From Rhodococcus sp. OK302 (lineage in GTDB: Bacteria; Actinomycetota; Actinomycetes; Mycobacteriales; Mycobacteriaceae): a DNA stretch of 64,000 nt. Numbering within the stretch: the stretch's first letter is position 1; each line of letters starts with the position of its first letter. Where the stretch lies: assembly GCF_002245895.1 (NCBI RefSeq), contig NZ_NPJZ01000001.1, positions 4,705,501 through 4,769,500 of the forward strand. Direction: 5' to 3'. The translations under genes were made by a program, and so were the position numbers. The notes beneath the pieces are model-generated. The model was not told the origin of the DNA. It worked only from the letters and a program-made list of their open reading frames with translations, and made no database searches. Shown one piece after another: positions 36,047-53,455 of the stretch.

Positions 36047-36060
36047 ATGAAACGTTTGCT
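36047..36060. promoter_or_regulatory. KstR2-like operator, site 1
   Basis: ATGAAACGTTTGCT fits A-n-CAAA-n-G-TTTG-n-T with one mismatch, 23 bases upstream of thiamine enzyme 2. It overlaps the likely promoter. Confidence 0.55.
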
Positions 36061-36264
36061 ATGTGCAGTGCAGCCGAGATCACCCGATCGAACCGCATTC
36101 CGCAAGAAGTCATCCCGCCTAGCGGACCTTCAGTCCCGATCGTGGCTGAGGCCGGCGCACGCGCTCACTCGTTCCGCGATTCGGTCAGATCCGCTTCCCG
36201 TGGAGGTATGAATCACCCTGTCCCCCAGTGTTCTACGCTACAAATTGCCAAGTGGTCGAAATGT

Positions 36265-36278
36265 AGCAAATGTTTGAT
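36265..36278. promoter_or_regulatory. KstR2-like operator, site 2
   Basis: AGCAAATGTTTGAT is an exact match to the shared 14-bp motif, about 140 bases upstream of the transketolase-like N-subunit. Confidence 0.7.
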
Positions 36279-36416
36279 ACACCGGTTAGTGTTGGCGCCT
36301 GGACGACTTGTCGACATCAACTCGAGAACGACCCAGCAGTGGTGGCGTGACATCAAATCCCATCCCGATACCAGGTGGGTATCTCCAACCGAACGAAGTA
36401 GTCGAGGAAGGATCAC

Positions 36417-37311
36417 ATGAGCACAAGAATGGCGTCCAGACCGGAAAACACCCGGCTGGAGCGTGGCCGAAGCGCCTCGGTCGCAGAGCTGAGCAACCGT
36501 GCGGACTGGCTGCGGATCGAGGTGATCCGAATGATCGACGGAGCCGGACTAGGCCACTATTCGAGCGTGTTTTCCTGCGCGGAGATCCTCTCGGTCCTCT
36601 ACTACCAGGCGCTGAGGCTCGACCCGGAAAATCCGGACTGGGCCGACCGAGACCGATTCCTGCTCGGCAAAGGGCATGCCGCTGTCGGCCTGTGGCCGAT
36701 CTTGTCCGATCTCGGATACTTCCCCCGCGAGGAATTGAATACTTTCGGCTACATCGGAAGCCGGTTCGGCGACCACCCCGACATGCGCAAGGCCCCTGGC
36801 GTCGACTTCAGTTCGGGATCATTGGGCCACAACCTCTCCGTCGGACTGGGCATGGCGCTCGCCGCCCGTCTGAGCGGCTCGGACCATCGGACGTTTGTCC
36901 TCACCGGCGACGGTGAGATCCACGAGGGCCAGGTCTGGGAGGCAGCCATGGCCGCCTCCCACTACCGACTCGGCAACCTCGTGGCCGTCGTCGACGCCAA
37001 CGGATACATCGGCAGCGGCCCCACGTCCGAGATGATGGGCATCGAACCTCTTGCCGCACGCTTCGAGGCATTCGGCTGGCACGTCATCGAACTCGACGGC
37101 CACGACGTCGCAACTCTCGCAGACACATTCGCCGATCTGCCGTCCCCGGACGGGGACCGGCCGGTGTGCATCATCGCCCGGACACAAAAAGGAAGGTCTC
37201 GCTCTCATGGAGGAAGCTCCCCGGGCCTGGCACGTCGGCTGCCTGACCCCGGAGCAGCGCGAAGCCGCCATTTCCGAAATCACCACCCGCATGCAGGAGG
37301 TAGCACCATGA
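36417..37311 (+). CDS. Transketolase-like N-terminal subunit, frameshifted
   Basis: This is the ThDP-binding (PP) subunit of a split transketolase: GHYSSVFSCAEILSVLYY, GKGHAAVGLWPIL, LTGDGEIHEGQVWEAA and VVDANGYIGSG. GGAAGGA precedes the ATG. The frame is clean to ARTQKG (about 37193). There the expected end (GLALMEEAPRAWHVGCL...MQEVAP, stop TGA at 37309) is in another frame, as if two bases were lost. The continued frame instead adds ~36 unrelated residues and runs straight into the C-subunit, giving one uninterrupted 623-codon frame to 38288. A sequencing error, a real lesion or an accidental fusion are all possible. Confidence 0.8.
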
Positions 37312-38288
37312 CCGCCACGACAAACAATCGAGCCGGCGCGATGGAGGACGTCTTCTCCGACGAAGGTCAGGCGTCGTCCCTCAACTTGCTCGGACATGCC
37401 CTGGCAGAACTCGCCGACCGGCATCCCGACGTGGTCGTCCTCTCCGCAGATCTGGGCTCGGCCCTGACGGAACTGCGGGAACGGCACCCGAACCGGTACA
37501 TCGAGATGGGTATCGCCGAAACCAACTCGATCTCGGTGGCAGCCGGGATGGCGGCCTCCGGGTATCGGCCGTACGTTCTCGCATTCGCCCCGTTCGGAAT
37601 GATCAAGTGCGCCGAACAGATTCGTACCGACTTGGCGGCGACGATGATGCCCGTAACCCTGGTAACCCGGCTCTCGGGCCTTGCGATGGGCTACTTCGGC
37701 GCTAGCCACCACGCAGTCGAGGACCTTGCGATAGCGCGGGCAATCACCAACCTGACCGTGATGACGCCGGCGGACAACGCGTCAACCCTCGCCCTACTGG
37801 AGCAGAGCAACACCGAGGCAGGGCCGGTTTTGCTGCGGATCAGCGAAGCAACCAGGCCGGTGTATTCGGAAGCTCCAACACTGGCGCGAGGAAAATTCTC
37901 CCGGGTTCGGCAGGGCCGCGATCTGACCATCATCGGCACCGGAATGGGCGTGGGCTGCGCCGTGGGAGCCGCCGAACTACTCGAAGCACACGGGATCAGC
38001 GCGGCCGTACTCGACTCGGCCTACATCAAACCACTCGACGAGGAAGCGATCTTGGACGCCGCCAGCACGACCGGCGCGATCCTGACGGTGGAGGAGCACA
38101 ACGCAATCGGTGGTCTGGGTTCCGCGGTGGCCGAAGTACTCGGCCGCAATGGCGTCTCCACCCGACTCGGAATCGTTGCACTACCAGACGAGGATCTCGA
38201 GGTCGGCGTTCCGGCGGACCTACTTGCCCACTACGGCATTACAGCCGAAGGCGTCACCCGGCGGGCATTGGCACTGCTGTCCCGATGA
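37308..38288 (+). CDS. Transketolase-like C-terminal subunit
   Basis: This 326-residue protein supplies the Pyr domain and C-terminal domain of a two-subunit transketolase: RYIEMGIAETNSISVAAGMA with catalytic Glu, LVTRLSGLAMGYFGASHHAVEDLA, and a C-domain with VLDSAYIKPLDEEAIL and TVEEHNAIGGLGSAV. AGGAGG lies eight bases before the ATG. Its ATG overlaps the intended stop of the N-subunit (ATGA). Split transketolases often serve special pathways rather than the pentose-phosphate cycle. It lies under KstR2-like site 2 via the N-subunit. Confidence 0.88.
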   Translation: MTATTNNRAGAMEDVFSDEGQASSLNLLGHALAELADRHPDVVVLSADLGSALTELRERHPNRYIEMGIAETNSISVAAGMAASGYRPYVLAFAPFGMIKCAEQIRTDLAATMMPVTLVTRLSGLAMGYFGASHHAVEDLAIARAITNLTVMTPADNASTLALLEQSNTEAGPVLLRISEATRPVYSEAPTLARGKFSRVRQGRDLTIIGTGMGVGCAVGAAELLEAHGISAAVLDSAYIKPLDEEAILDAASTTGAILTVEEHNAIGGLGSAVAEVLGRNGVSTRLGIVALPDEDLEVGVPADLLAHYGITAEGVTRRALALLSR

Positions 38289-38318
38289 CATCAGTCGTGG
38301 CGTGGAAGTTGGCCCGTC

Positions 38319-39923
38319 TCACACTCGCGAGACGGCCAACTTTCGCACCTCGCCCTTGGCGACTTTCCCACCGGGCCCAGTGGGAAGGTCGTCGACAAAG
38401 ACCACATATTCCGGAATGTATTCGGTGCTAATTCCCTGCGCGCGCATCCATTCCGACAGTATCGCCGTGGAAAGTTCGACACCGGATTCGGCGACCACCA
38501 CGGCGCACACCCGCTCCCCGAAAACATCGTCACGCACCCCGACCACGGAAACAGCTCGAACTGACGGATGCGCGCACATCAGTTCTTCGACGTCGACTGC
38601 GGAGATGTTCTTACCTCCGCGGATGATGATGTCGGCAATGCGTCCGACAACCCGTACCCGACCGGCAGCGTCGATATCCACGATGTCCCCGAGCAACATC
38701 CATCCATCTACCGTGTAAAGCTCGGCGTTCGCGTCTTCGTCCTGCCAGTAGCCCAGCGATTCGAGCGGCCCGTGGACAGCAGGTTGTCCACGCCGAGGCT
38801 CACCCTCACCGCCATTGTCAGAGAAAATCCGCACGTTCATGGACTCGATGACATGCCCGCAGGTTCTCAACCGAGTCTCACGGTCGTCATCGAGCGTCGT
38901 CTGACTGACAGCACCGGCTTCGTTCGAACCGTAGAACTGCAAAACCTTGGCACCCGTACGCTGTTCGAATGCCAGCGCCTCGGAGTAGGGAACCGCTTCG
39001 CCACCCGTGTAGAGCACGCGGAGACTGGACAAGTCTGCTGTACGCGCCCGTTCCGATCGAAGCAACATCTTGAATTGTGTACTGACACAACACAGCACGG
39101 TGACTCGTTCGCACTCGATCAGATCTATCATCACCTCGACGTCAAACTTCTCCAGGACGGCGGTGCGTGCACCGAGCAGAGTGGGCAAAAAATGGGCAGA
39201 CCACAGCCCGAAGCCGAACGGCGCCGGTACTGCCGAGCAGAAAACATCGACGTCGGTGATCCGCGCACCCACCATCGCCAATTGTGCGAATTCGATCCAC
39301 TTCTTCTCGTTGTGCGCCACTACTTTCGGCAGTCCGGTGGTGCCCGAGGTCGAGTTCAGCAGCGTGGTGTCGGACGTAGTGAAGACTCCGACACTGTTGG
39401 ACGACTCAGATGACTCGACGCGACTGCGCGCCTCCGTGCGATCGGTGGTACCCAGCTCCACCACGCCGTCGTCATCGACCACAATGACGCTGAGAACCGT
39501 CGCCCCACTTCGCTGCAGGTCATCGACAACGTCGTAACAGCTGCGGCCGCGGACTGTTGCGGTGGTGATCAGAACCCGGCAGTCGGCTTTGGCCATCAGG
39601 TGCGCGATTTCTCTTGTCCCGGAACGAAAACCGATTCCAGCTGCGACCCGGCCGGCCCGATAGGCGCCACACAATGCCGCATGCACTGCCATGGTGTCAG
39701 GGAGGTAGATCGCCACACCGGAACCGCCGACCGATTCTGCGACAGCGAGTGCTGCGGCGATTCGGTCGGCGGTCAGATCGTAGTCGCGCCAGGTATAGCG
39801 GCGGTCCCCGGTGACGAAGGCTACTGAGTCTGGTGTGTTCGCGGCCCGATGACGGACGACCTCGCTGATACTGACGTCCGAAAAGGCTTCAGGGTTGTCT
39901 GCGAACGTACTTCGACCCAACAT
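38319..39923 (-). CDS. Acyl-CoA ligase (AMP-forming, FadD-type)
   Basis: It is a 534-residue adenylate-forming enzyme. LLNSTSGTTGLPKVV is the P-loop (A3) motif, YGSNEAGAVS the A5 motif, GWMLLGDIVDIDAAGRVRVVGR the A7-A8 hinge and PTGPGGKVAKGE carries the catalytic Lys. It activates a carboxylic acid as its CoA thioester. It is the last gene of the nine-gene operon headed by the IpdA homologue, 18 bases after the acyl-CoA dehydrogenase, a position comparable in logic to FadD3 in the KstR2 regulon. The substrate is unknown. Confidence 0.9.
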   Translation of the reverse strand: MLGRSTFADNPEAFSDVSISEVVRHRAANTPDSVAFVTGDRRYTWRDYDLTADRIAAALAVAESVGGSGVAIYLPDTMAVHAALCGAYRAGRVAAGIGFRSGTREIAHLMAKADCRVLITTATVRGRSCYDVVDDLQRSGATVLSVIVVDDDGVVELGTTDRTEARSRVESSESSNSVGVFTTSDTTLLNSTSGTTGLPKVVAHNEKKWIEFAQLAMVGARITDVDVFCSAVPAPFGFGLWSAHFLPTLLGARTAVLEKFDVEVMIDLIECERVTVLCCVSTQFKMLLRSERARTADLSSLRVLYTGGEAVPYSEALAFEQRTGAKVLQFYGSNEAGAVSQTTLDDDRETRLRTCGHVIESMNVRIFSDNGGEGEPRRGQPAVHGPLESLGYWQDEDANAELYTVDGWMLLGDIVDIDAAGRVRVVGRIADIIIRGGKNISAVDVEELMCAHPSVRAVSVVGVRDDVFGERVCAVVVAESGVELSTAILSEWMRAQGISTEYIPEYVVFVDDLPTGPGGKVAKGEVRKLAVSRV

Positions 39924-39941: not shown

Positions 39942-41141
39942 TCAGCGATACTTGCGGATCTCGGTCCGCGCGACACTGCGGATATGAACTTCATCCGGAC
40001 CGTCGGCAATTCCCAAAATCCTGGCGCTGGCCCACATCCGGGCAATGGGGAAATCTTCGGTGACTCCCCCGCCACCGTGGCATTGGATGGACCGTTCGAG
40101 AACAGAGCGTGCCACTCGCGGAGCGATGACCTTGACCGCGGCAATTTCGATCGCGGCTTCCTTGACACCCATCTGGTCGATGATCCACGCGGTCTTGAGA
40201 ACCAGCAGACGCGCCTGCTCGATCTCCATGCGGGACTCCGCAATCCACGTCCGCACAACACCTTGGTCAGAAATCGGGCCACCGAAGGCGTCGCGCGACA
40301 ACGTTCGCCGGACCATCAATTCCAGTCCACGTTCCGCCATTCCGATGCAACGCATCGCGTGATGGATTCGGCCCGGACCCAACCGAGCTTGTGCGATGGC
40401 AAATCCTTCACCTTCACCCGCGAGAATGTTGGTTACGGGCACTCGCACGTCCGTGAACGTAATTTCGCAGTGTCCGTGCTGATCGTGGTAACCGAAGATC
40501 GGAAGTGACCGGATGATCTCGACGCCCGGCGTGTTCACCGGTACCAGGACCATCGACTGCTGGCGGTGGGGCGACGCCTCAGGGTCGGTCTTGCCCATCA
40601 AAACCAGGATCTCGCAACGTGGGTCGGCGGCGCCCGTTGTCCACCACTTGCGACCGTTGATGACGTAGTCGTCGCCGTCACGAACGATGGAGGTGCTGAT
40701 GTTTCGAGCATCCGACGACGCGACAGCGGGCTCGGTCATGGAGAACCCGGAACGCATACGGCCGTCCAGCAGTGGCTCGAGCCACTGCTCCTTCTGCTCG
40801 GGCGTGCCGAACATATGAAGGATTTCCATGTTGCCGGTATCAGGTGCCGCACAATTCAGCGCTTCCGGCGCGATGTAAGGCGAGCGTCCGGTGATCTCGG
40901 CAATGTGCGCATAGTCGAGGTGTGAGAGCCCGGACAGCGAGGGAAGGAACAGATTCCACATCCTCTGACGCCGAGCCTCGGCCTTCAGTTCCTCGACCAC
41001 AGCCGGCAACGTGTGATTACGCGGCCCCATCTCTTCCATCTGCTGCGCGTACACCGGCTCGGCCGGATACACATGATCGACCATGAACGCGTTCAAGCGG
41101 TCCATGATCTCCTGGGCTGCCGGGCTGGGAGCTAGGTCCAC
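39942..41141 (-). CDS. Acyl-CoA dehydrogenase
   Basis: It is a 399-residue FAD protein with the three-domain ACAD layout: GFSMTEPAVASSDARNI in the middle domain, INGRKWWTTGAADPRCEI, and the C-terminal helical bundle ending in CHGGGGVTEDFPIARMWASARILGIADG. The last ~20 residues carry the DEVH..SVAR..ir.Y signature. It introduces an alpha-beta double bond in a CoA thioester. The GTG at 41141 is preferred because GAGAGGA lies nine bases upstream; an ATG at 41165 lacks one. Confidence 0.9.
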   Translation of the reverse strand: MDLAPSPAAQEIMDRLNAFMVDHVYPAEPVYAQQMEEMGPRNHTLPAVVEELKAEARRQRMWNLFLPSLSGLSHLDYAHIAEITGRSPYIAPEALNCAAPDTGNMEILHMFGTPEQKEQWLEPLLDGRMRSGFSMTEPAVASSDARNISTSIVRDGDDYVINGRKWWTTGAADPRCEILVLMGKTDPEASPHRQQSMVLVPVNTPGVEIIRSLPIFGYHDQHGHCEITFTDVRVPVTNILAGEGEGFAIAQARLGPGRIHHAMRCIGMAERGLELMVRRTLSRDAFGGPISDQGVVRTWIAESRMEIEQARLLVLKTAWIIDQMGVKEAAIEIAAVKVIAPRVARSVLERSIQCHGGGGVTEDFPIARMWASARILGIADGPDEVHIRSVARTEIRKYR

Positions 41142-41209
41142 GATAGAAGTCCTCTCAGTTCTCACAATATGAATGCGTATGTATGCACGGGAGATCGATT
41201 CCGAACCGA

Positions 41210-42178
41210 TCAGTCACGGACCAAAATCACCTTGCCGGCAGCCTGCCGATTCATGACGATGTTCAGCGCTTCGGACGCGTCGTCGAACGGCAAGGTCCGA
41301 GACACGTGCGGCACCAGCAGCCCCTGCTCGTACCAGTCCAGCAACTGACGCATGTTGCTCGCGTTCTCGGCCGGGTTCCGTTTTGCCCACGCCCCCCACA
41401 ACACTCCGAGAAGTGAGGCCGAGGAGATGAGTAGGCGGTTCATTCCCACCTTGGGAATGTCGCCACTCGCGTATCCGACGGTCAGGTACCGGCCGCCCCA
41501 TTGGAGCGCCCTGATTGCAGCTTGCGCCGCGTCGCCGCCGACCGGGTCGTAGACGACGTCGACGCGTTCGCGTGTCTTCAGTTCGGATGCCAGGTCGCAC
41601 TCTGCGTAATTGATCAGTGTCGACGCACCGTGCTCTTCGCACAGTGCCAACTTCTCGGCAGTCGACGCCGCGGCAATCACCTCGGCTCCCAATGCTCGAC
41701 CGATCTCGACAGCAGTGAGCCCGACACCTCCAGCCGCACCGAGCACCAGAAGTCGTTCTCCGGCAGCAAGTCCCGCTCGGTCGACGAGGCCGTGGTAGGA
41801 GGTTCCGTACGTCACGGAGAATCCTGCAGCGTCAGGGTAGGACATCGCCTCAGGAATCGCGAAGACTTGTGACGCGGGTACCGAGACCTGCTCGGCGTAA
41901 CCGCCGATTCCACAGAACGCCAGGACACGAGTCCCCACGTTCAAACCTTCGACACCGTCTCCGACTGTCCGAATCACGCCCGCCACTTCGGATCCCGGAG
42001 TGAAGGGCAGGGGCGGCTTGGTCTGGTAGTTTCCGGCGACCATCAGTCCGTCCGGAAAGTTGATGCCGCAGGCCCGCACATCCACGATCACAGTTCCCGG
42101 TGCCGCAACCGGGTCCGGCACATCGGTGAACCGGAGGACATCCGGCTCACCGAGCGTGTGGCACTGGTGCGCCTTCAC
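41210..42178 (-). CDS. Quinone-oxidoreductase-like MDR family protein
   Basis: It is a 322-residue medium-chain dehydrogenase/reductase of the zinc-free quinone oxidoreductase type: GINFPDGLMVAGNYQTKPPL, PGSEVAGVIRTVGDGVEGL, VLGAAGGVGLTAVEIGRALG (NADPH site) and YDPVGGDAAQAAIRAL. It probably reduces an enoyl or quinone-like double bond using NADPH. Its GTG start overlaps the stop of the upstream MaoC gene by four bases, so it is translationally coupled. Confidence 0.9.
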   Translation of the reverse strand: MKAHQCHTLGEPDVLRFTDVPDPVAAPGTVIVDVRACGINFPDGLMVAGNYQTKPPLPFTPGSEVAGVIRTVGDGVEGLNVGTRVLAFCGIGGYAEQVSVPASQVFAIPEAMSYPDAAGFSVTYGTSYHGLVDRAGLAAGERLLVLGAAGGVGLTAVEIGRALGAEVIAAASTAEKLALCEEHGASTLINYAECDLASELKTRERVDVVYDPVGGDAAQAAIRALQWGGRYLTVGYASGDIPKVGMNRLLISSASLLGVLWGAWAKRNPAENASNMRQLLDWYEQGLLVPHVSRTLPFDDASEALNIVMNRQAAGKVILVRD

Positions 42179-42606
42179 ACCGACACCACACCGGGAGCGG
42201 TGACGAAGGATGCCCACACCCGCACCGCGACGCCGCCCGTCTGGCGGGCGCACTCGAGTTCCACGTCGATCTTGCTCTCGGTGTTGTCCTGATATTCCTT
42301 GACGACCTTGGCGGTACACGTCAGGACATCTCCGGGCCACACTTGCTCGAGGAATCGAATACGGAAGGAACGTACGTTCTCGGCACCGAGCCAGTCCGTC
42401 GCATAGGTGCCCAGCACTCCGGCCTGGAACATTCCCACGGAGAACGGACTCTCGAATCCTGCGGCCTTGGCGAAGGTCTCGTCATGATGAATCGGGTTCA
42501 TATCCCCCGACGCACCTTGGTAGCGAACGAAGTCCGTGCGGGTTACCGGTCCGATGGTCCACGGCAGCGGTGCCGTGATCGCCGTGGGCTGCGCTGTCAT
42601 GGTCAT
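42175..42606 (-). CDS. MaoC-family hydratase
   Basis: It is a 143-residue single hot-dog-fold protein with YQGASGDMNPIHHDETFAKAAGF, the R-specific enoyl-CoA hydratase signature with Asp and His. GGAGGAATC lies directly before the ATG. The upstream gene stop overlaps this start (ATGA). With that FAS1-like partner it likely forms a heterodimeric hydratase, adding water to an enoyl-CoA. Confidence 0.9.
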   Translation of the reverse strand: MTMTAQPTAITAPLPWTIGPVTRTDFVRYQGASGDMNPIHHDETFAKAAGFESPFSVGMFQAGVLGTYATDWLGAENVRSFRIRFLEQVWPGDVLTCTAKVVKEYQDNTESKIDVELECARQTGGVAVRVWASFVTAPGVVSV

Positions 42607-43052
42607 GATTCCTCCGACGGTGCTCGTCCGGTCTCGACGCCGGTCATCTTCGCCTGCGCCACCAAGGTTCCGTTTTCGTCCACGAAGTCGGTGACCATGA
42701 CTGCGAAGGTCATTTCGCCGCCTCGTCGACCTTCCTTTGTGAATACGTCGGTGATCCGTGAGCGGGCCTCGAGCTTGGTTCCCGCGCGCGGCGGCGGACC
42801 GAAGAAGGTGTATTCCTGTTCAGCATGCAGACCTCGCTGCTGATTCAGTTTCACTGCGCTCCAAGGGTTCTGATCGCCAGACTGCCAGAAGAACGTGGTG
42901 GTCAAGAAGGTCGGCGGACTGACCGGGTTTTCCGAGTCGAGGTACTCAGGATTGGTGCTGCGGATCGCGTGGGCGAATTCGCGGACCTTTCCGCGTTCCA
43001 CGTCGAGCCGGAACGGTGTTCCCGTTACACCCACGGCATCTTTGTTTGCCAT
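42603..43052 (-). CDS. FAS1-like dehydratase (MaoC N-terminal type) subunit
   Basis: It is a 149-residue hot-dog-fold protein: RLDVERGKVREFAHAIRSTNPEYLD, then PPTFLTTTFFWQSGDQNP and LHAEQEYTFFGPPPRAG, as in the HadA/MaoC_dehydrat_N family. Such subunits lack the catalytic Asp/His pair and hold the acyl chain for a catalytic partner, here the overlapping MaoC gene. Confidence 0.88.
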   Translation of the reverse strand: MANKDAVGVTGTPFRLDVERGKVREFAHAIRSTNPEYLDSENPVSPPTFLTTTFFWQSGDQNPWSAVKLNQQRGLHAEQEYTFFGPPPRAGTKLEARSRITDVFTKEGRRGGEMTFAVMVTDFVDENGTLVAQAKMTGVETGRAPSEES

Positions 43053-43085: not shown

Positions 43086-43961
43086 TTATGCGAAGGTCTT
43101 CATTTCCGTCGCCAGCTCTTCGAGTGTCCAGCGTGAGTCCTTCACGATGCTCTTGCCGTACGACCAGCCGAGGAACTGCTTGATCTCGCCGCCCTTCGCA
43201 TAGAAGACCGAGCCGTTGGTGTCGCAGTCGGCGGTGAGCAGGTGAGCGACCACCGGAGACACGTTGCCCGGGTGGTAGACGTCGAAATCGTTCGGATCCG
43301 CGGGGACCGCCACCATCTCGGCGATTCCGGGAACCTTCTCTGTCATTCGAGTGCGTGCGACTGGGGTGATGGCATTGACGCGCACTCCGTAGCGGCTGAT
43401 CTCCTGCGCCAAAATCACAGTGAGCGCGGCAATCCCAGCTTTGGCGGCGCCGTAGTTACTCTGGCCGACTGCGCCGAGAAGCCCCGACGTGGACGAGACG
43501 TTCACGATGGATGCTGCCACGGCGTCGCCAACCTTGGAACGGTCACGCCAGTGCGCGCCGAACACGCGGCAGGGAGCAAACGTCGCGCGAAGCTGACCCG
43601 CGATCACGGTGTCCCATTCTTCTTCACTCATGTTCACGAACATCCGGTCGCGGAGAACACCCGCATTGTTGACCAGTCCGTGAACTGCGCCGAAGTTCTC
43701 TACTGCCAGATCGAGAAGCGCCTGAGCTCCGGCGACTGTGGTGACGTCCGCGTTGCTGGCGATTGCGCTGCCACCGAGAGCTGTGATCTCAGCAGCGACC
43801 GCTGCGGCCAGAGCGTCATCCGTTCCCGAGCCGTCGGCAGCGGCGCCCGTGTCGTTGACTACGACGTGCGCGCCTTCCGCGGCAGCAAGGAGCGCGTGTT
43901 CGCGGCCGATTCCACGGCCGGCTCCGGTGACGACAACAACACGACCTTCAAGCTGATTCAT
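43086..43961 (-). CDS. SDR oxidoreductase, (3R)-hydroxyacyl-CoA dehydrogenase-like
   Basis: It is a 291-residue SDR with VVTGAGRGIGREHALLAAAEGAH, VNNAGVLRDRMFVNMSEEEWD, NVSSTSGLLGAVGQ and NYGAAKAGIA. The VVNDTGAAADGSG insertion and FVNMSEEEWD stretch are shared with the dehydrogenase part of peroxisomal multifunctional enzyme 2, so a 3-hydroxyacyl-CoA is the likely substrate. It follows the IpdC homologue by 33 bases; a half KstR2-like site (GTATCAAACATG) lies in that gap. Confidence 0.9.
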   Translation of the reverse strand: MNQLEGRVVVVTGAGRGIGREHALLAAAEGAHVVVNDTGAAADGSGTDDALAAAVAAEITALGGSAIASNADVTTVAGAQALLDLAVENFGAVHGLVNNAGVLRDRMFVNMSEEEWDTVIAGQLRATFAPCRVFGAHWRDRSKVGDAVAASIVNVSSTSGLLGAVGQSNYGAAKAGIAALTVILAQEISRYGVRVNAITPVARTRMTEKVPGIAEMVAVPADPNDFDVYHPGNVSPVVAHLLTADCDTNGSVFYAKGGEIKQFLGWSYGKSIVKDSRWTLEELATEMKTFA

Positions 43962-43994
43962 CCAAGTCCCTTTCGAATACGTGTATCAAACATG

Positions 43995-45068: not shown

Positions 45069-45841
45069 GCCGAAACCTCCTTGTTTCGCAGTCCCTTGGG
45101 ATCGATGACATCCCGAATGAGCTGTAGCTCTTCGACGCTCGGAAGCCGGGTCTGCGGAACCGACTCGGGAATCTCGAGCTCGAATCCGGTTGCTGCCACC
45201 ACGTCGTCGACGCTGACCCCCGGATGCACCGACACAAGCCGAAGTCGACCCGAGTCTGCGTAATCCAGTACAGCCAAATTTGTGACAACGTGACGCAGAT
45301 CGTGATGCTTGGTCGCAGCCGGACCTGCCTTGGTCGCGTTGTCGTTACCGACTCCCGAGACCATGTCTACGCGTGGCACGAACACACGGGTGCTGTGTGC
45401 GGGAACCCAGTAGCTGGTGGGGTGGTACACACTGTTTCCCGGCGCACCCCGCACACCCAGAAGCTGCACCTTGGGCGCCGCGTGATCACCGATCGCCGAG
45501 ATATTGCTGTTGCCGTAGACGTCGAGCTGGGTGGGGATCATCATGATGTGGCGCTTGCCGTTCCACACCAGATTGAAGATCGCGCTGAACGGCATCCACG
45601 CTTCGATCTCCCCCTCCGCCGGCCCGCCGACGGCCCAGGTGCCACGAACTCCATGCGCCTCGCCGTCGGAGATCACCAGATCCTGTTCGAAGGTGTGTCG
45701 TGCCAACCGAACTCCGATGGCCGGAATGGTTCCGAAGGCACTCGCGATGACCTCACCGTTGCCGCGATACGCTTCGGCGCAGGCAATGACGCACACTTCG
45801 GCTCGGGTAGCAGGAGCCACGTTCGCACTCGACTCGCTCAT
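45065..45841 (-). CDS. IpdB-like CoA-transferase-family ring-opening hydrolase, beta subunit
   Basis: It is a 258-residue protein of the class I CoA-transferase fold. TRAEVCVIACAEAYRGNGEVIASAFGTIPAIGVRLAR, GVRGAPGNSVYHPTSYWV and RLVSVHPGVSVDDVV are the conserved stretches of IpdB. The mycobacterial IpdAB pair opens the last steroid ring as a CoA-thioester hydrolase rather than transferring CoA. Start and stop overlap its neighbours by four bases each, so IpdA-B-C are one translational unit. It resembles, but is visibly diverged from, the cholesterol-pathway protein as I recall it. Confidence 0.85.
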   Translation of the reverse strand: MSESSANVAPATRAEVCVIACAEAYRGNGEVIASAFGTIPAIGVRLARHTFEQDLVISDGEAHGVRGTWAVGGPAEGEIEAWMPFSAIFNLVWNGKRHIMMIPTQLDVYGNSNISAIGDHAAPKVQLLGVRGAPGNSVYHPTSYWVPAHSTRVFVPRVDMVSGVGNDNATKAGPAATKHHDLRHVVTNLAVLDYADSGRLRLVSVHPGVSVDDVVAATGFELEIPESVPQTRLPSVEELQLIRDVIDPKGLRNKEVSA

Positions 45842-46704
45842 GCCGACACCGCCTGGGAATCGCGCAGCGCGACAGCGCGCTGGTAGTCCGCTTCGCTACC
45901 GGAAAGGTACTCGCCGACAAAGGCTTTCCACTGTTGTGGATCGCGGGCGGCGGCCGCATATTCCCGCTGGAAGGATTCGTCGCGTTCGTAGTTCGGCACG
46001 CACGAGGTGAAATGTGCGCCCTTCGGTGCCTCGACCACACCGGAGACCAGGAGACGGGCGATCCGCAGCGTCGACGGATGAGCATCGGCCGTCAAGGCCT
46101 TGGTGGGCACGATTTCCTCGCACGACACATAGGCATCCTCGGCCGCCATGCAGAACAGATCGTCGAAATACAGGTCAGGGCCCAAGAATTGGGCATTGCC
46201 ATGCATGTCTGCACGGTTCATGTGCACCAGTGCCGCATCAAGATTCAAGGCGGGCATCGCTGCAAAAACCTCGTCTCCGTACGGGTCGGATACGGTACGC
46301 ATATCGGGGTTGACCGTCATGACGTCCGATCCCAGTCCAGCTCGGGTCGGCAAGAAGGGCATCCGGATGCCGGCAGCGTACAAACCCCACTGCAGCATTC
46401 CCTCGTCGTACTCGGCCACTTCCACCGCTCCGGCCTGACGGACGGCCCGGAAATGCGGATCGAGGGCAATCGAGTCCAACGAAACGAACCCGAAAATCAC
46501 CTTCTTGACTTTCCCTGCCGCACAGAGCAATCCGACGTCCGGACCACCGTACGACACGATCGTCAGATCCGTGAGGTCTGATCGAAGAATTGCACGCACG
46601 AGGGACATCGGCTTGCGCCGTGACCCCCAACCACCGATACCGATCGTCATACCGGACCGCAGTCGACGTACGACATCGTCCTCGGTCATCGTCTTGTCAC
46701 TCAA
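45838..46704 (-). CDS. IpdA-like CoA-transferase-family ring-opening hydrolase, alpha subunit
   Basis: It is a 288-residue protein with RLRSGMTIGIGGWGSRRKPM, VSYGGPDVGLLCAAGKVKKVIFGFVSLD, YDEGMLQWGL and LPTRAGLGSD, all typical of IpdA. I take the TTG at 46704 as start: (M)SDKTMTEDDVVRRLRSGM aligns with the N-terminus of mycobacterial IpdA, and AAAGG lies upstream; an ATG at 46689 is the alternative. It heads the nine-gene operon. An exact KstR2-like operator at 46760-46773 lies 56 bases upstream. Confidence 0.87.
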   Translation of the reverse strand: MSDKTMTEDDVVRRLRSGMTIGIGGWGSRRKPMSLVRAILRSDLTDLTIVSYGGPDVGLLCAAGKVKKVIFGFVSLDSIALDPHFRAVRQAGAVEVAEYDEGMLQWGLYAAGIRMPFLPTRAGLGSDVMTVNPDMRTVSDPYGDEVFAAMPALNLDAALVHMNRADMHGNAQFLGPDLYFDDLFCMAAEDAYVSCEEIVPTKALTADAHPSTLRIARLLVSGVVEAPKGAHFTSCVPNYERDESFQREYAAAARDPQQWKAFVGEYLSGSEADYQRAVALRDSQAVSA

Positions 46705-46759: not shown

Positions 46760-46773
46760 AGCAAACGTTTGAT
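46760..46773. promoter_or_regulatory. KstR2-like operator, site 3
   Basis: AGCAAACGTTTGAT is an exact motif match with a perfectly symmetric core CAAACGTTTG. It is the only likely control site for the IpdA-headed operon and lies between the isomerase stop (46782) and the IpdA start. Confidence 0.75.
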
Positions 46774-46781
46774 TCACATCA

Positions 46782-47636
46782 TCATGGTTTCATCTCCGCG
46801 TCAACCGCCAACTCCGCGGTGAGCCAGGAATACGCTCGCCTAAGCGCACTCTCCGGCCCTTCCTCCTCAATCGCAGGACCGAGTATCTCCAGCTCAACAG
46901 CACCGCGGTAGCCGAGACCGAGCACTTCACGCAACAGTCGATCCATCGGAAGATCTCCATCGCCGGGTACCCACCGGTTGGGAACCGCGAGCGTTCCTAC
47001 CCGGAAATCGGCTACTTGCACGATCTGCACCCGATCGAGTTCAGCCCGCAAGGTACCGAGTAGATCCGGTTCCTGAAATGCGCAATAGAGGTCGACGACC
47101 ATTCCGATGTCCAGACGCCGTGCGATTACCGCCGCATCGCGAACTGTATGAACGAAACTCAGATCCGAACGCATCTGCATGGTGTTCTCCAGGGAGAGCC
47201 GAACTCCCAACTGTTTGGCCCGCTCGGCCACCGGCGACACATGATCGATCAATCGGTCTGCTGCATCTTCCCAGCTGAGACGTCCGGACGGTCCCGTTGT
47301 GAACAGCACCGTCGGTGCTCCCAGACCTGCCGCGCCGACCACTGCTGCGTCGAGTGCCGCAATCTCCCCCTCCCAGGCAGTTCCATCGTCCGGATCGGCT
47401 GTGATTCCGTGCGCGATACAACCGACCGCGACGCCGAACTCACGGGCCAGCGATACCGTTTCCGGCCAACCGGTTCGACCCGCTTTGTACGCGGACAGTG
47501 CCACGGCGGAAATCCCGAGGCGTCGGCAGAGCGCCAACTCGTCACGCAATGCCCAACTCGCGGTTGTAATCAGACTGACGGAAGGAAATGGGCCTCGCAC
47601 CAGGTCCATCTGGCGGGATTTGTCGTTGTGATCCAT
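46782..47636 (-). CDS. Sugar-phosphate isomerase/epimerase-like TIM-barrel protein
   Basis: It is a 284-residue protein of the xylose-isomerase-like/AP-endonuclease-2 barrel family: ALCRRLGISAVALSAYK, LSLENTMQM (Glu), MVVDLYCAFQEPDL (Asp), VQVADFRVG and GAVELEILGP (Glu) give a divalent-metal site. Members isomerise or epimerise sugars, inositols or related polyols. AGGAG lies upstream of the ATG. It is divergent from sulfatase 3 with KstR2-like site 4 between them. Confidence 0.85.
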   Translation of the reverse strand: MDHNDKSRQMDLVRGPFPSVSLITTASWALRDELALCRRLGISAVALSAYKAGRTGWPETVSLAREFGVAVGCIAHGITADPDDGTAWEGEIAALDAAVVGAAGLGAPTVLFTTGPSGRLSWEDAADRLIDHVSPVAERAKQLGVRLSLENTMQMRSDLSFVHTVRDAAVIARRLDIGMVVDLYCAFQEPDLLGTLRAELDRVQIVQVADFRVGTLAVPNRWVPGDGDLPMDRLLREVLGLGYRGAVELEILGPAIEEEGPESALRRAYSWLTAELAVDAEMKP

Positions 47637-47700: not shown

Positions 47701-47714
47701 AGCAAATGCTTGAT
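47701..47714. promoter_or_regulatory. KstR2-like operator, site 4
   Basis: AGCAAATGCTTGAT matches the motif with one mismatch. It lies between the divergent isomerase and sulfatase 3 genes, 65 and 43 bases from their starts. Confidence 0.65.
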
Positions 47715-47756: not shown

Positions 47757-50006
47757 ATGAACGTCGATACCCGCACGAGCGCCTCGGGTTCACAGCGCCG
47801 CGAACCCCGCGAATCCGATGCGCCGAAATGGCCGGTTCCCGTGTCGGCGCCCGCAGGCGCGCCGAACGTTCTCGTGATCATGACCGATGACGTCGGTTAC
47901 GGGGCAAGCAGCACTTTCGGTGGACCGATTCCCACTCCGGCGCTCGACGCACTCGCCGAAACCGGTCTGCGTTACACGCAGTTTCATACAACTGCGATGT
48001 GTTCTCCGACCCGCGCGGCACTCATGACCGGTCGCAACCACCACAAGGTCGGTGCGGGGCGTGTCACCGAGATGGCGCTTGCCTACGACGGATACACCAG
48101 CATCATCCCCGACAGCGCTGCCACGGTTGCCGAAATGCTGCGGTGCAACGGATATTCCACCGCACAGTTCGGCAAGTACCACAATGTCCCCGTCTACGAG
48201 ACCGGGCCCGCCGGACCGTTCGACCACTGGCCCACGAACATGGGATTCCAACATTTCTACGGCTATCTCGGTGGCAGCACCGACAATTGGGCACCCGCAC
48301 TGTACGAAGGGACCAGTCCGGTGGACCCACCTACGGACGATCCCACGTACCACCTCGAAAAAGACCTGGCAGACAAGGCAATTACCTGGATTCGTCGGCA
48401 GAAGTCGGCGGCACCGAACAAGCCTGTCTACATCCAGTACAGCAATGCCGCTACTCACGCTCCGCACCATGCACCACGAGAGTGGATCGATCGATTCCGT
48501 GGGCAGTTCGATCAGGGCTGGGATGCCATACGCGAGGAAACGATCGCTCGACAGAAGCAACTCGGTGTCATACCCGCAGACACCGAACTGACCGAACGTC
48601 CCGAGCAGATCGCATCGTGGGACTCCCTCACCGCCGAGCATCAAAAAGTGGCGGCCCGCATGATGGAGGTCTACGCCGGCGCTCTCGCTTACGCCGACTC
48701 CCAGATAGGCCGTGTTCTCGAAGAATTGGAACGCATCGGTGAACTCGACAACACGCTGGTCTTCTACATCCAGGGCGACAACGGAGCCAGTCCCGAAGGT
48801 GGAGCCAACGGCTCTCTCAACGAGATGAGTTACGTCAACCGTATGGAAGACAGCATCGAATCCCTCCTCGAACACCTCGACGAACTCGGCGGCCCGCTGC
48901 ACTACAACCACTTTCCGGCCGGTTGGGCCCACGCGACGGATACCCCGTTCAAATGGTTCAAGATGGTCGCGTCGCATTTCGGGGGCACGCGCAACGGGAT
49001 GGTGCTCTCGCACACCGCCCGAATCACCGACGCCGGCGGAATCCGCACGCAATTCCACCACGTCATCGACGTCGTTCCCACCATCCTCGATGTCATCGGA
49101 ATAGAAGCGCCCAAACAGATTCGGGGCGTAGAACAGATGCCGCTGTGCGGAGTGCCGATGGCCTACACCTTCGATGACGCCGCGGCACCGTCGACCCGAA
49201 CGACACAGTATTTCGAATTGATGGGCAACCTCGCGATCTATTCCGACGGGTGGGTTGCCGCTACTACGCCCCGGGAAATGCCGTGGGAATTCGCCACCGG
49301 CGCAGACTCTCTCGACGATGTGAACTGGGAGTTGTACCACGTCGAGAACGACTACAGTCAGTCCGACGATCTGTCGGCGCAGTACCCCGACAAACTCAGC
49401 GCGCTGGTCGATCTGTTCTGGGAAGAGGCCGAAGCCAACCAGGTTCTTCCCGTTATCGTCAAAGCGCTCAATCCTGGCCCGCCTAAGCCGAATCCGACTT
49501 TCGGCCTGACCACGTTCGTCTACTACGACGGGGTGACGCGAGTGACACCTGGCAGTGCACCCGATGTCACCAACAAGCCGTTCAGCATTACCGCGGACGT
49601 AGTGTTGACTTCGAACCACGCAGACGGCATGCTCCTCTCTCAAGGTGGTCGATTCGGTGGCCATGCTCTGTATTTGGCAAACGGTGTCCTCACCTACCAC
49701 TACAACCTCTTAGGCCGCGAGCGTGGCACGGTCACTTCCGAATTCGCTCTTCCTGCCGGACGGCACCAACTCGTGGCCGTGGTCGACATCGATCCCACGC
49801 AGCGCGGCGGATCCGCAGCGGTCACCCTCCTCTGCGATGAGGAGAAGGTCGGATACGGAACCGTGGCGAACACTGCCCCGTTCCGCCTCAACTATATCGA
49901 AGGCCTGAGCATCGGACGCGACACCGGAACCCCGGTGTCCGAGCAGTACCAGCTGCCGTTCATCTTCGACGGAGTACTCGACAAAGTGACCGTAGCCCTC
50001 GGCTGA
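47757..50006 (+). CDS. Arylsulfatase-type sulfatase 3
   Basis: It is a 749-residue type I sulfatase with NVLVIMTDDVGYGASSTFGG (Asp pair D44, D45), MCSPTRAALMTGRNHHKVG (formylglycine Cys82), VYIQYSNAATHAPHH and YIQGDNGASPEGG. It is closer in motif wording to sulfatase 2 than to sulfatase 1. The C-terminal beta-rich part is present. No signal peptide is visible. CAGGAG precedes the ATG. It lies at the head of a plus-strand unit with a binding protein, a phosphotransferase-like gene and the KstR2-like regulator. Confidence 0.9.
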   Translation: MNVDTRTSASGSQRREPRESDAPKWPVPVSAPAGAPNVLVIMTDDVGYGASSTFGGPIPTPALDALAETGLRYTQFHTTAMCSPTRAALMTGRNHHKVGAGRVTEMALAYDGYTSIIPDSAATVAEMLRCNGYSTAQFGKYHNVPVYETGPAGPFDHWPTNMGFQHFYGYLGGSTDNWAPALYEGTSPVDPPTDDPTYHLEKDLADKAITWIRRQKSAAPNKPVYIQYSNAATHAPHHAPREWIDRFRGQFDQGWDAIREETIARQKQLGVIPADTELTERPEQIASWDSLTAEHQKVAARMMEVYAGALAYADSQIGRVLEELERIGELDNTLVFYIQGDNGASPEGGANGSLNEMSYVNRMEDSIESLLEHLDELGGPLHYNHFPAGWAHATDTPFKWFKMVASHFGGTRNGMVLSHTARITDAGGIRTQFHHVIDVVPTILDVIGIEAPKQIRGVEQMPLCGVPMAYTFDDAAAPSTRTTQYFELMGNLAIYSDGWVAATTPREMPWEFATGADSLDDVNWELYHVENDYSQSDDLSAQYPDKLSALVDLFWEEAEANQVLPVIVKALNPGPPKPNPTFGLTTFVYYDGVTRVTPGSAPDVTNKPFSITADVVLTSNHADGMLLSQGGRFGGHALYLANGVLTYHYNLLGRERGTVTSEFALPAGRHQLVAVVDIDPTQRGGSAAVTLLCDEEKVGYGTVANTAPFRLNYIEGLSIGRDTGTPVSEQYQLPFIFDGVLDKVTVALG

Positions 50007-50063
50007 TCACTCGTACCGCCTGATTAACACCATTTTTCGAACGCGATCGAAGAGAGGCCAACT

Positions 50064-51638
50064 ATGACACAGACCCGGTTCGGCAAGGGAAAGCTCGTCA
50101 CTGCTCTTGCCGTGGCAGCGCTGTCGTTGTCCGCCTGTGGCGGAGGCGCGAGCGGTACGACGAACAGCGGAAGCGTCGGCGGTGAGGTCGACCCCGCTGC
50201 AGTGATACGGATTGCCTCCGCCGGCACGTCCAACAATCTCGACCCCCAGCAACAGATGACCATCGGCGGGTGGAGTCATCTCACTGCACTCTTCGATCGA
50301 CTCATGACCGTCGACAGCAACGACAAAATTGTTCCCGGACTTGCCAAGTCGTGGGAATTCAGCTCGGACGGCAAGTATCTGGAGCTGAAGCTGCGTGACG
50401 ACGTCACCTTCAACGACGGAACCCGCTTCGATGCCGAGGCGGTTGCCGCCACCCTGAAACGAGGCAAAACACTCGCAGGCAGTACCTCGGCTGCGGCACT
50501 CGCGGGCGTCATCGATATCACTGCACCTGACATGTACACCGCGCGCATCGAACTGGCGCCGGGAGCCGGTGTCGAACTACCCGGAGTATTCACCACTCCG
50601 GTAGGCATGATGATCAGTCCCGCCGTGATCGCCGCCGGCACCGATATCCGCAACGACCCGGGACTTGCAGGTTCCGGCGCCTACGTCGTCACCAAATACG
50701 TTCCCGGAGAGTCGCTTGTATTGAAGCGGTCCGATCGTCCGTACTGGGACGCGGAGGGCGGACGCCTCGGCGGCATCGACATCACGCTTGTCCCAGACGC
50801 GTCGACGCGTCTGAACGCCATCCAGACCGGAGCACTGGATCTCACGTGGGTCAGTTCGGCCAGCGAAGTGGTGCAGGCAAATACGCTTGCCGACCGCGGC
50901 GCCTTCGCAATCGACAAGGTTCCGTTCCGAAGCACCCTCGGTGTCTATCTGCGTCCGACGGGTCAGCTGGCCGATCAAGAAGTACGTCAAGCGGTTGCAC
51001 AGTCGATCAATCCGGATGAGATCAACGCGCTGTTCTCCGGGAACTGCACACCACACAACCAGATGTTCCCGAAGACGAGCTCGGCATTCGATCCCGACTA
51101 CAAGTATCCGTACGCCTTCGATCCGGAGGCGGCCAAGGCATTGGTCCAGAAGAATGGAAACACCAAGGTCACGCTAACGTTCGGTGCCGGGAGCAACACC
51201 GAAAAGCCCACCAACGTCATCCAGTCTGCCCTGTCCACTTCGGGCTTCGATGCCGAGCTCAATCCCGTTCCGCTCAACCAGCTCGAACCACGCTACATTG
51301 CCGGTGAATTCGATCAGATGGTCGCCAACTCGTTCACACCCAAAGTCGATCCTGCGGAAACCGTGAACTTCTACTTGGTCAACAACTTCAAGTTCGCTGC
51401 CGACGACCCGGAAATCCTGGGCATGATCAAGCAGGCTGCCGATCCGACGATGTCCGAGAACGACCGTGCCGAGCTGTACCACAAGATCTCGGCGAAGACG
51501 CTGGAGAAGGCCCTGTGGGTCCCGATCTGCAACCAGACCAACGCCACGCTCTCGAGCAACAAAGTGGTCGGCGCCGACGACGTCCCGTGGGTCAACGTCG
51601 GAATCTACGATCTTCGCCATCTTGCGATGACAAAGTAG
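50064..51638 (+). CDS. Peptide-type ABC transporter substrate-binding lipoprotein 1 (SBP_bac_5)
   Basis: It is a 524-residue exported lipoprotein: signal helix then LSAC lipobox with Cys25, then the family-5 binding fold (SNNLDPQQQMTIGGWSHL; YLELKLRDDVTFNDGTRFDAEAV; IYDLRH near the C-terminus). It delivers peptides, oligosaccharides or other organic solutes to an Opp/Dpp-type importer. No permease or ATPase is adjacent; the only such genes here are at 57585-61334. GAGAGG lies upstream of the ATG. Clustering with sulfatase 3 suggests capture of the sulfated compound or its product. Confidence 0.9.
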   Translation: MTQTRFGKGKLVTALAVAALSLSACGGGASGTTNSGSVGGEVDPAAVIRIASAGTSNNLDPQQQMTIGGWSHLTALFDRLMTVDSNDKIVPGLAKSWEFSSDGKYLELKLRDDVTFNDGTRFDAEAVAATLKRGKTLAGSTSAAALAGVIDITAPDMYTARIELAPGAGVELPGVFTTPVGMMISPAVIAAGTDIRNDPGLAGSGAYVVTKYVPGESLVLKRSDRPYWDAEGGRLGGIDITLVPDASTRLNAIQTGALDLTWVSSASEVVQANTLADRGAFAIDKVPFRSTLGVYLRPTGQLADQEVRQAVAQSINPDEINALFSGNCTPHNQMFPKTSSAFDPDYKYPYAFDPEAAKALVQKNGNTKVTLTFGAGSNTEKPTNVIQSALSTSGFDAELNPVPLNQLEPRYIAGEFDQMVANSFTPKVDPAETVNFYLVNNFKFAADDPEILGMIKQAADPTMSENDRAELYHKISAKTLEKALWVPICNQTNATLSSNKVVGADDVPWVNVGIYDLRHLAMTK

Positions 51639-51663
51639 GCCTACGCATGAACAAGGACCGCAC

Positions 51664-52722
51664 ATGACCGATAGATCCACTGCTACCAGAACCACGGCCA
51701 CGCTCGGTATCGACCGTCTCGCGGTCACCGCCTGGTTCGAGCGCTCAGTCCCGAATGCTCTCGCTCCGTTCAGCTTCGAACAGATAGCCGGGGGCCGGTC
51801 AAATCTGACGTACCTGGTCACCGACACCTCGGGTACTCGTTGGGTACTCCGCCGACCCCCGTTGGGAAAGATCGTGGCCACCGCTCACGACGTCGTCCGC
51901 GAGGCAGGCATCTTGTCTCGACTCTCAGATACCGGGGTTCCGGTTCCAACGGTCGTCGGTGTCTGTACCGATCTCGAGATCAACGGATCTCCATTTTTCG
52001 TCATGGAATTCCTGGACGGAGAAATCCTGCGGGACTCGGACGCGGTGGAGGCTTTCCTCCCTCCCACCGAACGCCGCGCACTTGGCAATTCGCTCGTCGA
52101 CACTCTCGCGCGCCTGCACTCGTTGGACCCCGCGGCTCACGGTTGGTCGCAGCGCTCGACATCGGGAGGGTATGTCGAACGGCAACTCTCACGCTGGTCC
52201 GCCAGTTGGGAAGGAGATCGTGTGCGAGTCCTCGAGGACATCAGTCGCACCCGTGACGCATTGAGTCGCCGGACCCCACCCCAATTACGCTCGAGCGTCG
52301 TACACGGTGACTATCGCCTCGACAACGCTCTGATGGGCACACAGGGCCAGGTGCTCGGAGTGCTCGACTGGGAACTGTCGACAGTCGGTGACCCACTGGC
52401 GGACCTGGGGCAGTTCTTGATGTACTGGGCGCAACCTGGCGACGAGGTAACCGCGCTCGAGACGCCCCCGACGTTCGCAGCCGGTCTACCCACCCGAGAC
52501 GAACTGGCTGATCGCTACTTGACCGCCACCGGTATGCCTGGCGACGACTTGGAGTATTACCTGGCATTCAACTGGTGGAAAACGGCCTGCATCGTCGAAG
52601 GCGTCTACACCCGCGTATCCCGCGGATCGATGGGTCGCACCGACCGCACCCCCGAATCGTTCGGTGTCCAGGCACAGCGTCTGGCTGCACAGGCCTGGTC
52701 GTGCGCACAGAACCTCGCGTGA
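51664..52722 (+). CDS. Phosphotransferase-family (APH/ACAD10-like) protein
   Basis: It is a 352-residue protein with a kinase-like fold: FEQIAGGRSNLTYLVTD (nucleotide loop), catalytic SVVHGDYRLDN and metal-binding GVLDWELSTVGDPLADL. This subgroup is often found with acyl-CoA dehydrogenases, as in ACAD10/11, where it phosphorylates hydroxyacyl-CoAs for later elimination. That would suit a 4-hydroxyacyl intermediate here, but the substrate is inferred from context only. AAGGACCGC precedes the ATG. It lies between a binding protein and the KstR2-like regulator. Confidence 0.87.
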   Translation: MTDRSTATRTTATLGIDRLAVTAWFERSVPNALAPFSFEQIAGGRSNLTYLVTDTSGTRWVLRRPPLGKIVATAHDVVREAGILSRLSDTGVPVPTVVGVCTDLEINGSPFFVMEFLDGEILRDSDAVEAFLPPTERRALGNSLVDTLARLHSLDPAAHGWSQRSTSGGYVERQLSRWSASWEGDRVRVLEDISRTRDALSRRTPPQLRSSVVHGDYRLDNALMGTQGQVLGVLDWELSTVGDPLADLGQFLMYWAQPGDEVTALETPPTFAAGLPTRDELADRYLTATGMPGDDLEYYLAFNWWKTACIVEGVYTRVSRGSMGRTDRTPESFGVQAQRLAAQAWSCAQNLA

Positions 52723-52753
52723 AACGCAACGGTGCCCTTTTCGCCGGGCGCGC

Positions 52754-52767
52754 ATCAAACCTTTGTT
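52754..52767. promoter_or_regulatory. KstR2-like operator, site 5 (autoregulatory)
   Basis: ATCAAACCTTTGTT matches the motif with one mismatch, 53 bases upstream of the TetR gene, so autoregulation is likely. Confidence 0.6.
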
Positions 52768-52819
52768 CAACTGTCGTAGAATTCGCGACGCGATCCTTGC
52801 ACAAACATCGGAGGTAGGC

Positions 52820-53398
52820 ATGGAGTGGTCTGAGCGCCACGACCTGATTCTCGGGCAGGCAGCATCGCTGTTTGCCACCAAGGGAATCGCAGGCACCCCG
52901 GTGCGGGATATCGCCGACGGAGTCGGCATCCTCTCCGGCAGCCTTTATCACTACTTCGAATCCAAGGATGCAATCGCGTACATGATCGTGTCGAGGTATC
53001 TCGACGATCTGACTGCTCGATACGAAGCGATTACCGACGCCGATCCGCGGGATCGGCTTACCTCGATCGTCCACGCCTCGCTGGCCGCAAGCGTTGCGCA
53101 CCCGCATGCCTCGGAGATCTATCAGAACAACTCCGAATATCTTCGAAAACTTCCGGGGAACAACACTATTCGATCGGCAGCCCGCACCACCAAGACAACG
53201 TGGATGGATGCGATCGCCTCCGGAATCGAAGCCGGACAGCTTCGCGCGGATCTACCCGCAGACGTGATCTACGGATTGATGCGCGACGCGGTCTGGTTGT
53301 CGCTGCGGTGGTTCTCCCCCACCAAGAACTATTCGATCGAACAGTTCGGCGATACCTTGATCTCGGTCTTCCTCGAAGGCATCGAACCACAAAAATAG
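52820..53398 (+). CDS. KstR2-like TetR-family regulator
   Basis: It is a 192-residue TetR protein. The recognition region VRDIADGVGILSGSLYHYF is nearly the same as that of mycobacterial KstR2 as I remember it, and the C-terminal stretch DVIYGLMRDAVWLSLRWFSP matches a KstR2 hallmark. KstR2 binds AnCAAGnnCTTGnT and is released by the CoA thioester of the steroid C/D-ring acid. The variant palindromes around this gene suggest a paralogue with a related operator and a different CoA-ester ligand. GGAGG precedes the ATG. Confidence 0.88.
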   Translation: MEWSERHDLILGQAASLFATKGIAGTPVRDIADGVGILSGSLYHYFESKDAIAYMIVSRYLDDLTARYEAITDADPRDRLTSIVHASLAASVAHPHASEIYQNNSEYLRKLPGNNTIRSAARTTKTTWMDAIASGIEAGQLRADLPADVIYGLMRDAVWLSLRWFSPTKNYSIEQFGDTLISVFLEGIEPQK

Positions 53399-53441
53399 AC
53401 GACCCCGCACAGTTCACACCACCGTCTACATTCTCCCATGC

Positions 53442-53455
53442 AGCAAATGTTTGAT
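53442..53455. promoter_or_regulatory. KstR2-like operator, site 6
   Basis: AGCAAATGTTTGAT is an exact motif match 20 bases upstream of the SDR gene at 53475. It is identical to site 2. Confidence 0.75.

Follow-up and report, generated by a model that had tools for sequence, protein, structure and literature searches.

The analysis described here concerns 64,000 nucleotides of Rhodococcus sp. OK302 (the window; contig NZ_NPJZ01000001.1, positions 4,705,501 to 4,769,500). It suggests, with high confidence, that a KstR2-like TetR protein encoded there, KstR2L (52820..53398, plus strand), binds palindromes of the form GTAKCAAAYRTTTGMTAC and represses the catabolic units that surround its gene. 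The local regulon is conserved and well supported by comparative genomics, the assignment of the regulator is very likely and the mechanism would follow that of KstR2 by analogy. Seven places in the window carry the palindrome or a degenerate form of it, and all lie in gaps 5' of start codons, as an earlier sequence-only reading of this stretch had placed them. The search patterns ANCAAANGTTTGNT, ANCAAANNTTTGNT and AKCAAAYRTTTGMT were taken from the window itself and the motif counts are therefore partly circular. Exact ANCAAANGTTTGNT was found at 36265, 46760 (counted on both strands), 53442 and, on the minus strand, 52754, and these five matches were reached in none of 100 dinucleotide shuffles (mean 0.02, maximum 2). 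With ANCAAANNTTTGNT at up to one mismatch, and equally with AKCAAAYRTTTGMT at up to two, the window returned six places only, 36047, 36265, 46760, 47701, 52754 and 53442, the same three exact (36265, 46760, 53442) and three one-mismatch palindromes that the earlier reading had listed. The host genome is 6.79 Mb, the window lying on its 6.0-Mb contig (C1; the second contig is C2). All three genome-wide exact matches to AKCAAAYRTTTGMT are in the window. Allowing up to one mismatch gives eight places, five of them in the window; the remaining ones, at C1:3316652, C1:3531745 and C2:422650, each fall within a long open reading frame (ORF), these being mechanical ORFs and not annotated genes. For this strict pattern, these counts are the comparison of gaps and genes that the sequence-only reading had proposed. 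The looser ANCAAANNTTTGNT, at up to one mismatch, gave 67 places in the genome, six of them in the window, against 26 for a reversed control; exact, it gave five, namely four window places and C1:2754699.

The fuller palindrome GTAKCAAAYRTTTGMTAC, longer than first stated, comes from a 20-column matrix for which 12 genomes of other genera supplied 43 sites, identical 20-mers being counted once. These sites were chosen near TetR orthologues with ANCAARNNYTTGNT, so that the core is not independent of the earlier pattern, while the flanking GTA/TAC is. Information content in the CAAA core is 1.54-1.82 bits, and the outer G and C each hold 1.36 bits. Scored with this matrix, the seven places occupy ranks 1-7 of the 63,981 window positions, and the next best score is 3.8.

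The palindrome also tracks the regulator across genomes. Among the host and 60 relatives (61 genomes), the motif is present in all four with a close orthologue (at least 69% identity) and in one of the 57 without. In 401 family genomes (host included; orthologue cut-off E <=1e-48), for which the regulator and motif searches were taken as one set from their matching handles and numbers, it is present in 15 of 15 with a TetR orthologue and in 12 of 386 without (Fisher p 3e-20, which overstates independence as the genomes are related, though they carry five genus labels). Each orthologue-bearing genome has two to six exact copies. Eleven of the 12 motif genomes without an orthologue have one copy and the remaining one has two (13 copies); in G418, no cluster gene matched in the 13 kb around one of its two sites. 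The site lies 67-114 bp upstream of the TetR gene in 13 of the 15 orthologues, the three Rhodococcus ones included.

In the 12 other-genus genomes the sites precede the same kinds of genes. In 11 of them ipdA has a site in front of it; in the exception, G091, the stretch that was mapped did not turn up an ipdA, and a site precedes the gene for SDR1, a short-chain dehydrogenase (SDR). Ten genomes (not G091 or G125) have a site before the TetR gene, and the same ten have one at the start of an isomerase gene, which in the eight genomes inspected lies upstream of a common AGGAG-ATTCGTG start. In several genomes the isomerase and TetR genes diverge from a gap with a single site, which may act on both. 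Three genomes (G036, G204, G231) have a fuller site between ipdC and SDR1, at the position where the window shows no more than the 43985 half-site. The transketolase gene has its own site in three of the four maps containing it (G174, G075, G138) and is inside a gene run in the fourth, G125. Sulfatase 3 has a site in two of three maps (G138 and G125, not G276), the G125 sulfatase being matched in three pieces. In G138 the ipdA genes and the TetR gene are on separate contigs with sites at both, the ipdA genes having two exact ones. A homologue of the APH-type kinase is found near the cluster in all 12 genomes (labelled IsoB on one G036 map).

Four putative operators in the window are strong (the sites are given without strand): 36265..36278 before the transketolase gene (exact, matrix score 33.9, rank 1), 53442..53455 before SDR2-SDR3 (exact, 31.2), 46760..46773 before the proposed ipdA operon (exact, 31.0) and 47701..47714 (one mismatch, 28.8), which joins a CAAA half to a CAAG-type half. 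The last separates the divergent isomerase and sulfatase genes, giving seven candidate units instead of the six first proposed, and the supposed transketolase pair at 36417-38288 is a single transketolase-type ORF of 623 amino acids. The other three putative operators are 36047..36060 before thiamine enzyme 2 (14.9), 52754..52767 before the TetR gene (11.7) and the degenerate site 43985..43998 between the ipdC-like and SDR1 genes (9.2), the half-site of the earlier reading, which holds rank 7. These three places owe their credibility to where they lie and not to their scores. As noted, 13 of the 15 orthologues have a site upstream of the TetR gene, and a palindrome before its own gene is also what is seen for KstR2. 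In the related genome G003 the 36265 motif is intact although the surrounding stretch is 81% identical overall, the 47701 site is unchanged in G021 and G003, and the 36047 site in G021 differs by one base and scores 18.3. At seven of eight places the gap from site to start codon is 19-64 bp, which fits promoter occlusion; for KstR2-regulated genes the accessible part of Kendall et al. (PMC3068626) gives 22-82 bp.

The sequence-only reading had called the regulator KstR2-like, and in a phmmer search of the PDB its best solved relatives are indeed KstR2, 4w97 and 4w1u (E ~1e-37). With KstR2 (Rv3557c, MSMEG_6009, ro04598) it shares the TetR fold and a near-identical recognition helix, and the Arg and Trp of the KstR2 segment IRDTTW, which we take to have a ligand role, are kept as MRDAVW. 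On sequence comparison, however, the window TetR is a paralogue and not an orthologue of KstR2: the protein of host C1:288457-289020 matches RHA1 2ibd and KstR2 much more closely (E 5e-103 and 1e-70), and the window TetR is 33% identical to this host KstR2. It is 98% identical to the TetRs of Rhodococcus sp. ARC_M6 and IEGM 1379. A tree of 40 KstR2-like proteins groups the window TetR with its 14 orthologues in a single clade (support 100/98), whose neighbour is L128, a CAAG-type protein of another family (93/94). Two more KstR2-like paralogues of the host, C1:2351541 and C1:1351634, adjoin CAAG-type palindromes, and such a site also lies ~2 kb from the host KstR2 gene. A third paralogue has two CAAG palindromes, L112:10394 and L112:13005, 2.6 kb apart in similar contexts, and G276 has a second KstR2-like gene (L219:4205-4759), 39% identical, ~20 kb from its TetR orthologue.

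The accessible part of Kendall et al. (PMC3068626) gives the KstR2 operator motif as AnCAAGnnCTTGnT. The window sites keep its 14-bp length, outer A/T, two-base centre and spacing, and depart from it only in the inner base of each half (CAAG/CTTG versus CAAA/TTTG). The operator is therefore not shifted, as had been supposed, but changed by one base per half, and the window sites, which read CAAA/TTTG with one hybrid, do not fit AnCAAGnnCTTGnT. Among 22 other KstR2-like genes with an upstream site, the left half is CAAG in 20 and the hybrid AGCAAATGCTTGTT is found in two; no CAAA/TTTG was found among the best two matches listed per gene for these 22. Three KstR2-like rows with no recognisable site (L169, L130, L140) were excluded from the CAAG group. 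The recognition helix is conserved (ILSGSLYH or VLSGSLYH versus mostly ILSGSLYH). Within the first 62 residues, positions 2, 3, 7, 9, 13 and 58 do not overlap between the CAAA and CAAG groups, residues 2 and 3 having letters in just one CAAG row. At residue 7, where helix 1 begins, all 15 CAAA-type proteins have His and all 22 CAAG-type ones have Arg (16 rows with a letter at this residue and six truncated rows read further upstream), a correlation that counts as one event because the 15 CAAA-type proteins are one clade. It would be attractive to explain this by an Arg-guanine contact that disappeared together with the guanine itself. As the specificity change, the residue before helix 2 was rejected: CAAG-type proteins mostly have TTV and 13 of the 15 have TPV or TKV, but the TSV of G091 and G125 is shared by the CAAG-type L137. 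Since CAAG sites lie near the other KstR2-like genes of the host, the KstR2L clade probably changed its operator once, keeping the recognition helix and altering helix 1. We speculate further, and tentatively, as the chances are rather against it, that a KstR2-type repressor was duplicated and acquired an operator of its own through the same one-base change, CAAG to CAAA, in both halves, with the switch at helix 1 (Arg7His, perhaps also Trp 3), and that this insulates a second, parallel ring-cleavage pathway from the three CAAG-site paralogues in the same cell.

Several observations weigh against the proposed KstR2L regulon. Three of the seven places (36047, 52754 and 43985) score weakly. In 195 kb of other host stretches, picked outside the window around KstR2-like genes and motif-like matches, the top score is 15.97, reached twice (L114 and L116) in a duplicated stretch of the two contigs; it exceeds that of 36047 and yet lies inside ORFs. 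This ~5-kb stretch is found on both contigs at 90% identity (L114:2726-7796, L116:3639-8701), with ATCAAACACTTGAT inside an ORF. The TetR gene lacks an immediately preceding site in G091 and G125, whose orthologues are the two most distant, and the transketolase site sits 138 bp from the start of its gene. The window isomerase is only marginally similar to that of the other genera (IsoA; 29% over 49 residues, E 0.03); the two share family and place but are not demonstrably orthologous. G003 lacks the 36047 site; its thiamine enzyme 2 gene is inverted (L173:3828-5523 versus window 34347-36042) and hence out of the transketolase gap, and in the four other-genus maps having this gene (G138, G075, G276, G125) no site directly precedes it. 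Thus, while the co-occurrence with the TetR and the recurrent gene kinds support control by the TetR of the units that the sequence-only reading assigned to it, control of thiamine enzyme 2 through 36047 is doubtful and the point on which that reading is weakest. Finally, two canonical-side KstR2-like genes, L141 (G047) and L142 (G060), are preceded by the hybrid AGCAAATGCTTGTT, a CAAA/CTTG form, so that a single CAAA half may be acceptable to KstR2 as well and cross-talk is possible at the hybrid site 47701.

These hybrids, together with the almost identical recognition helices, also favour an unlikely alternative in which the canonical KstR2 of the host (C1:288457) binds the palindromes, tolerating CAAA halves, and the cluster is an extended KstR2 regulon. 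Against this, 23 of 27 other genomes of the genus have a KstR2-like protein (E <=1e-25) but no orthologue of the window TetR, and the motif is missing in 22 of these 23; moreover, CAAG-type sites exist elsewhere in the host, for example one ~2 kb from KstR2 and a one-mismatch site ~0.8 kb upstream of a second ipdA. Slightly less probable again is that KstR2L activates its targets, or both activates and represses: nothing specific speaks for activation beyond the 138-bp transketolase distance, which does not demand occlusion, while KstR2 is a repressor according to the accessible part of PMC3068626 and seven of eight places are no more than 64 bp from a start codon. That the motif is no operator but a repeat due to chance or base composition is scarcely credible given its clustering, intergenic position, conservation and co-occurrence with the regulator, even though a simple composition estimate for typical sizes and G+C of 0.02-0.05 copies per genome puts the 13 copies in the 12 regulator-free genomes near chance.

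Genes were assigned with Pfam and NCBIfam, and solved relatives were sought by phmmer against the PDB. The proposed ipdA operon runs on the minus strand from 46704 to 38319. Its first product, an IpdA-like subunit (45838..46704, start probably TTG at 46704), matches 6co6, 6coj and 6con at E 1e-99 or better, aligns with 6co6 over almost its full length and keeps the glutamate replaced in 6coj, which we take to be the catalytic residue of IpdA. In these respects it resembles the IpdAB ring-cleaving hydrolase, although it is 61% identical to the IpdA encoded by the second host ipdA (C1:241350). There follow an IpdB-like subunit of CoA-transferase fold (45065..45841, weak Pfam CoA_trans, adjoining ipdA) and an FMN reductase (43995..45068, Pfam NMO, FabK-like in NCBIfam and PDB), which is called IpdC-like from its gene position and because IpdC is FabK-like. 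The run continues with SDR1 (43086..43961, Pfam; PRK07791-like in NCBIfam, slightly under cut-off), MaoC-type hydratases 2 (42603..43052, Pfam FAS1_DH_region) and 1 (42175..42606, Pfam), a zinc-type alcohol dehydrogenase/reductase (41210..42340, Pfam; its real start is probably within the ORF), an acyl-CoA dehydrogenase (FadE, 39942..41165, Pfam; 81-87% identity in the other-genus maps having it) and, last, an acyl-CoA ligase (FadD, 38319..39923, Pfam AMP-binding). On either side of the 47701 site are a xylose-isomerase-like TIM barrel protein (46782..47636, minus strand, Pfam AP_endonuc_2) and, on the plus strand, type I sulfatase 3 (47757..50006, Pfam Sulfatase; arylsulfatase 4cxk, E 1e-63), a family 5 solute-binding protein in the sulfatase run (50064..51638, Pfam SBP_bac_5) and the APH-type kinase (51664..52722, Pfam APH). 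KstR2L itself has Pfam TetR_N and TetR_C_24 and is followed on the plus strand by SDR2 (53475..54266, Pfam; like KstR2L, scanned on a longer ORF) and SDR3 (54301..55077, Pfam). At the other end are the transketolase-type enzyme (36417..38288, plus strand, Pfam) and thiamine enzyme 2 (TPP2, 34351..36024, minus strand), a doubtful regulon member with Pfam TPP_enzyme N, M and C and NCBIfam NF004807 above cut-off. The latter matches many ALS-type enzymes, best BbmA and among them cyclohexane-1,2-dione hydrolase, and fixes no substrate.

Next door, 15107-34325 encodes two further sulfatases, two thiamine enzymes, an old yellow enzyme, TauD-type oxygenases, an MFS transporter, a TetR (28371) and a flavin monooxygenase with a weak, below-cut-off likeness to pentalenolactone D synthase. 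Homologues of several of these genes adjoin the regulon in other genera; no operator-like matrix score above 3.8 was found in this neighbouring stretch. At 57585-61460 a four-ORF run follows two family 5 binding proteins, its first ORF being an oligopeptide-type ABC ATPase by Pfam. One of these two binding proteins is that of 50064, encoded in the sulfatase run downstream of the 47701 operator.

In the model that we propose, a KstR2L homodimer would bind the palindrome GTAKCAAAYRTTTGMTAC and repress the transketolase gene, the nine-gene run from ipdA to fadD, the isomerase gene, the run of sulfatase, binding protein and kinase genes and SDR2-SDR3. It would repress its own gene more weakly, a probable autoregulation shared with KstR2. 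Release would probably be by a CoA-thioester intermediate of the controlled pathway, as KstR2 is released by HIP-CoA, its effector according to the accessible part of PMC5380842. The genes are consistent with uptake, desulfation, CoA activation, beta-oxidation and IpdAB-type ring cleavage of an alicyclic compound. Like the KstR2 regulon, the cluster has a local ipdABC-like set, and a counterpart of ipdF is possible among its several SDRs; unlike it, the predicted KstR2L set has sulfatase, isomerase-like, transketolase and MaoC genes, and no crotonase (echA20-type) or thiolase (fadA6-type) domain was found among the 20 window products scanned. With its second ipdA (C1:241350) downstream of a CAAG-type site, the host cell appears to have two ring-cleavage modules under two related repressors. 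Family and PDB searches of the cluster proteins gave only general families as clues to the substrate. Actinobacteria with several steroid pathways appear, from the accessible part of PMC5380842, to end in a single HIP pathway, which suggests that the cluster may serve another, non-HIP alicyclic compound rather than duplicate HIP catabolism, and sulfatase 3 suggests that this compound is perhaps sulfated.

No description of a CAAA-type KstR2 operator or of the present cluster was found among the open papers searched, judged mostly by titles and the beginnings of abstracts. From partial descriptions alone, KstR3 and the candidate motifs of the Nocardioides simplex bile-acid cluster are comparable in that they extend the regulation of steroid-type clusters beyond KstR and KstR2. 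If our reading is true, one actinobacterial family has, across five genus labels, a second KstR2-type regulon that covers a catabolic pathway, and it would offer a natural experiment in operator separation among paralogous TetR repressors. The matrix and the gene set provide handles for finding the substrate, which should derepress the units.

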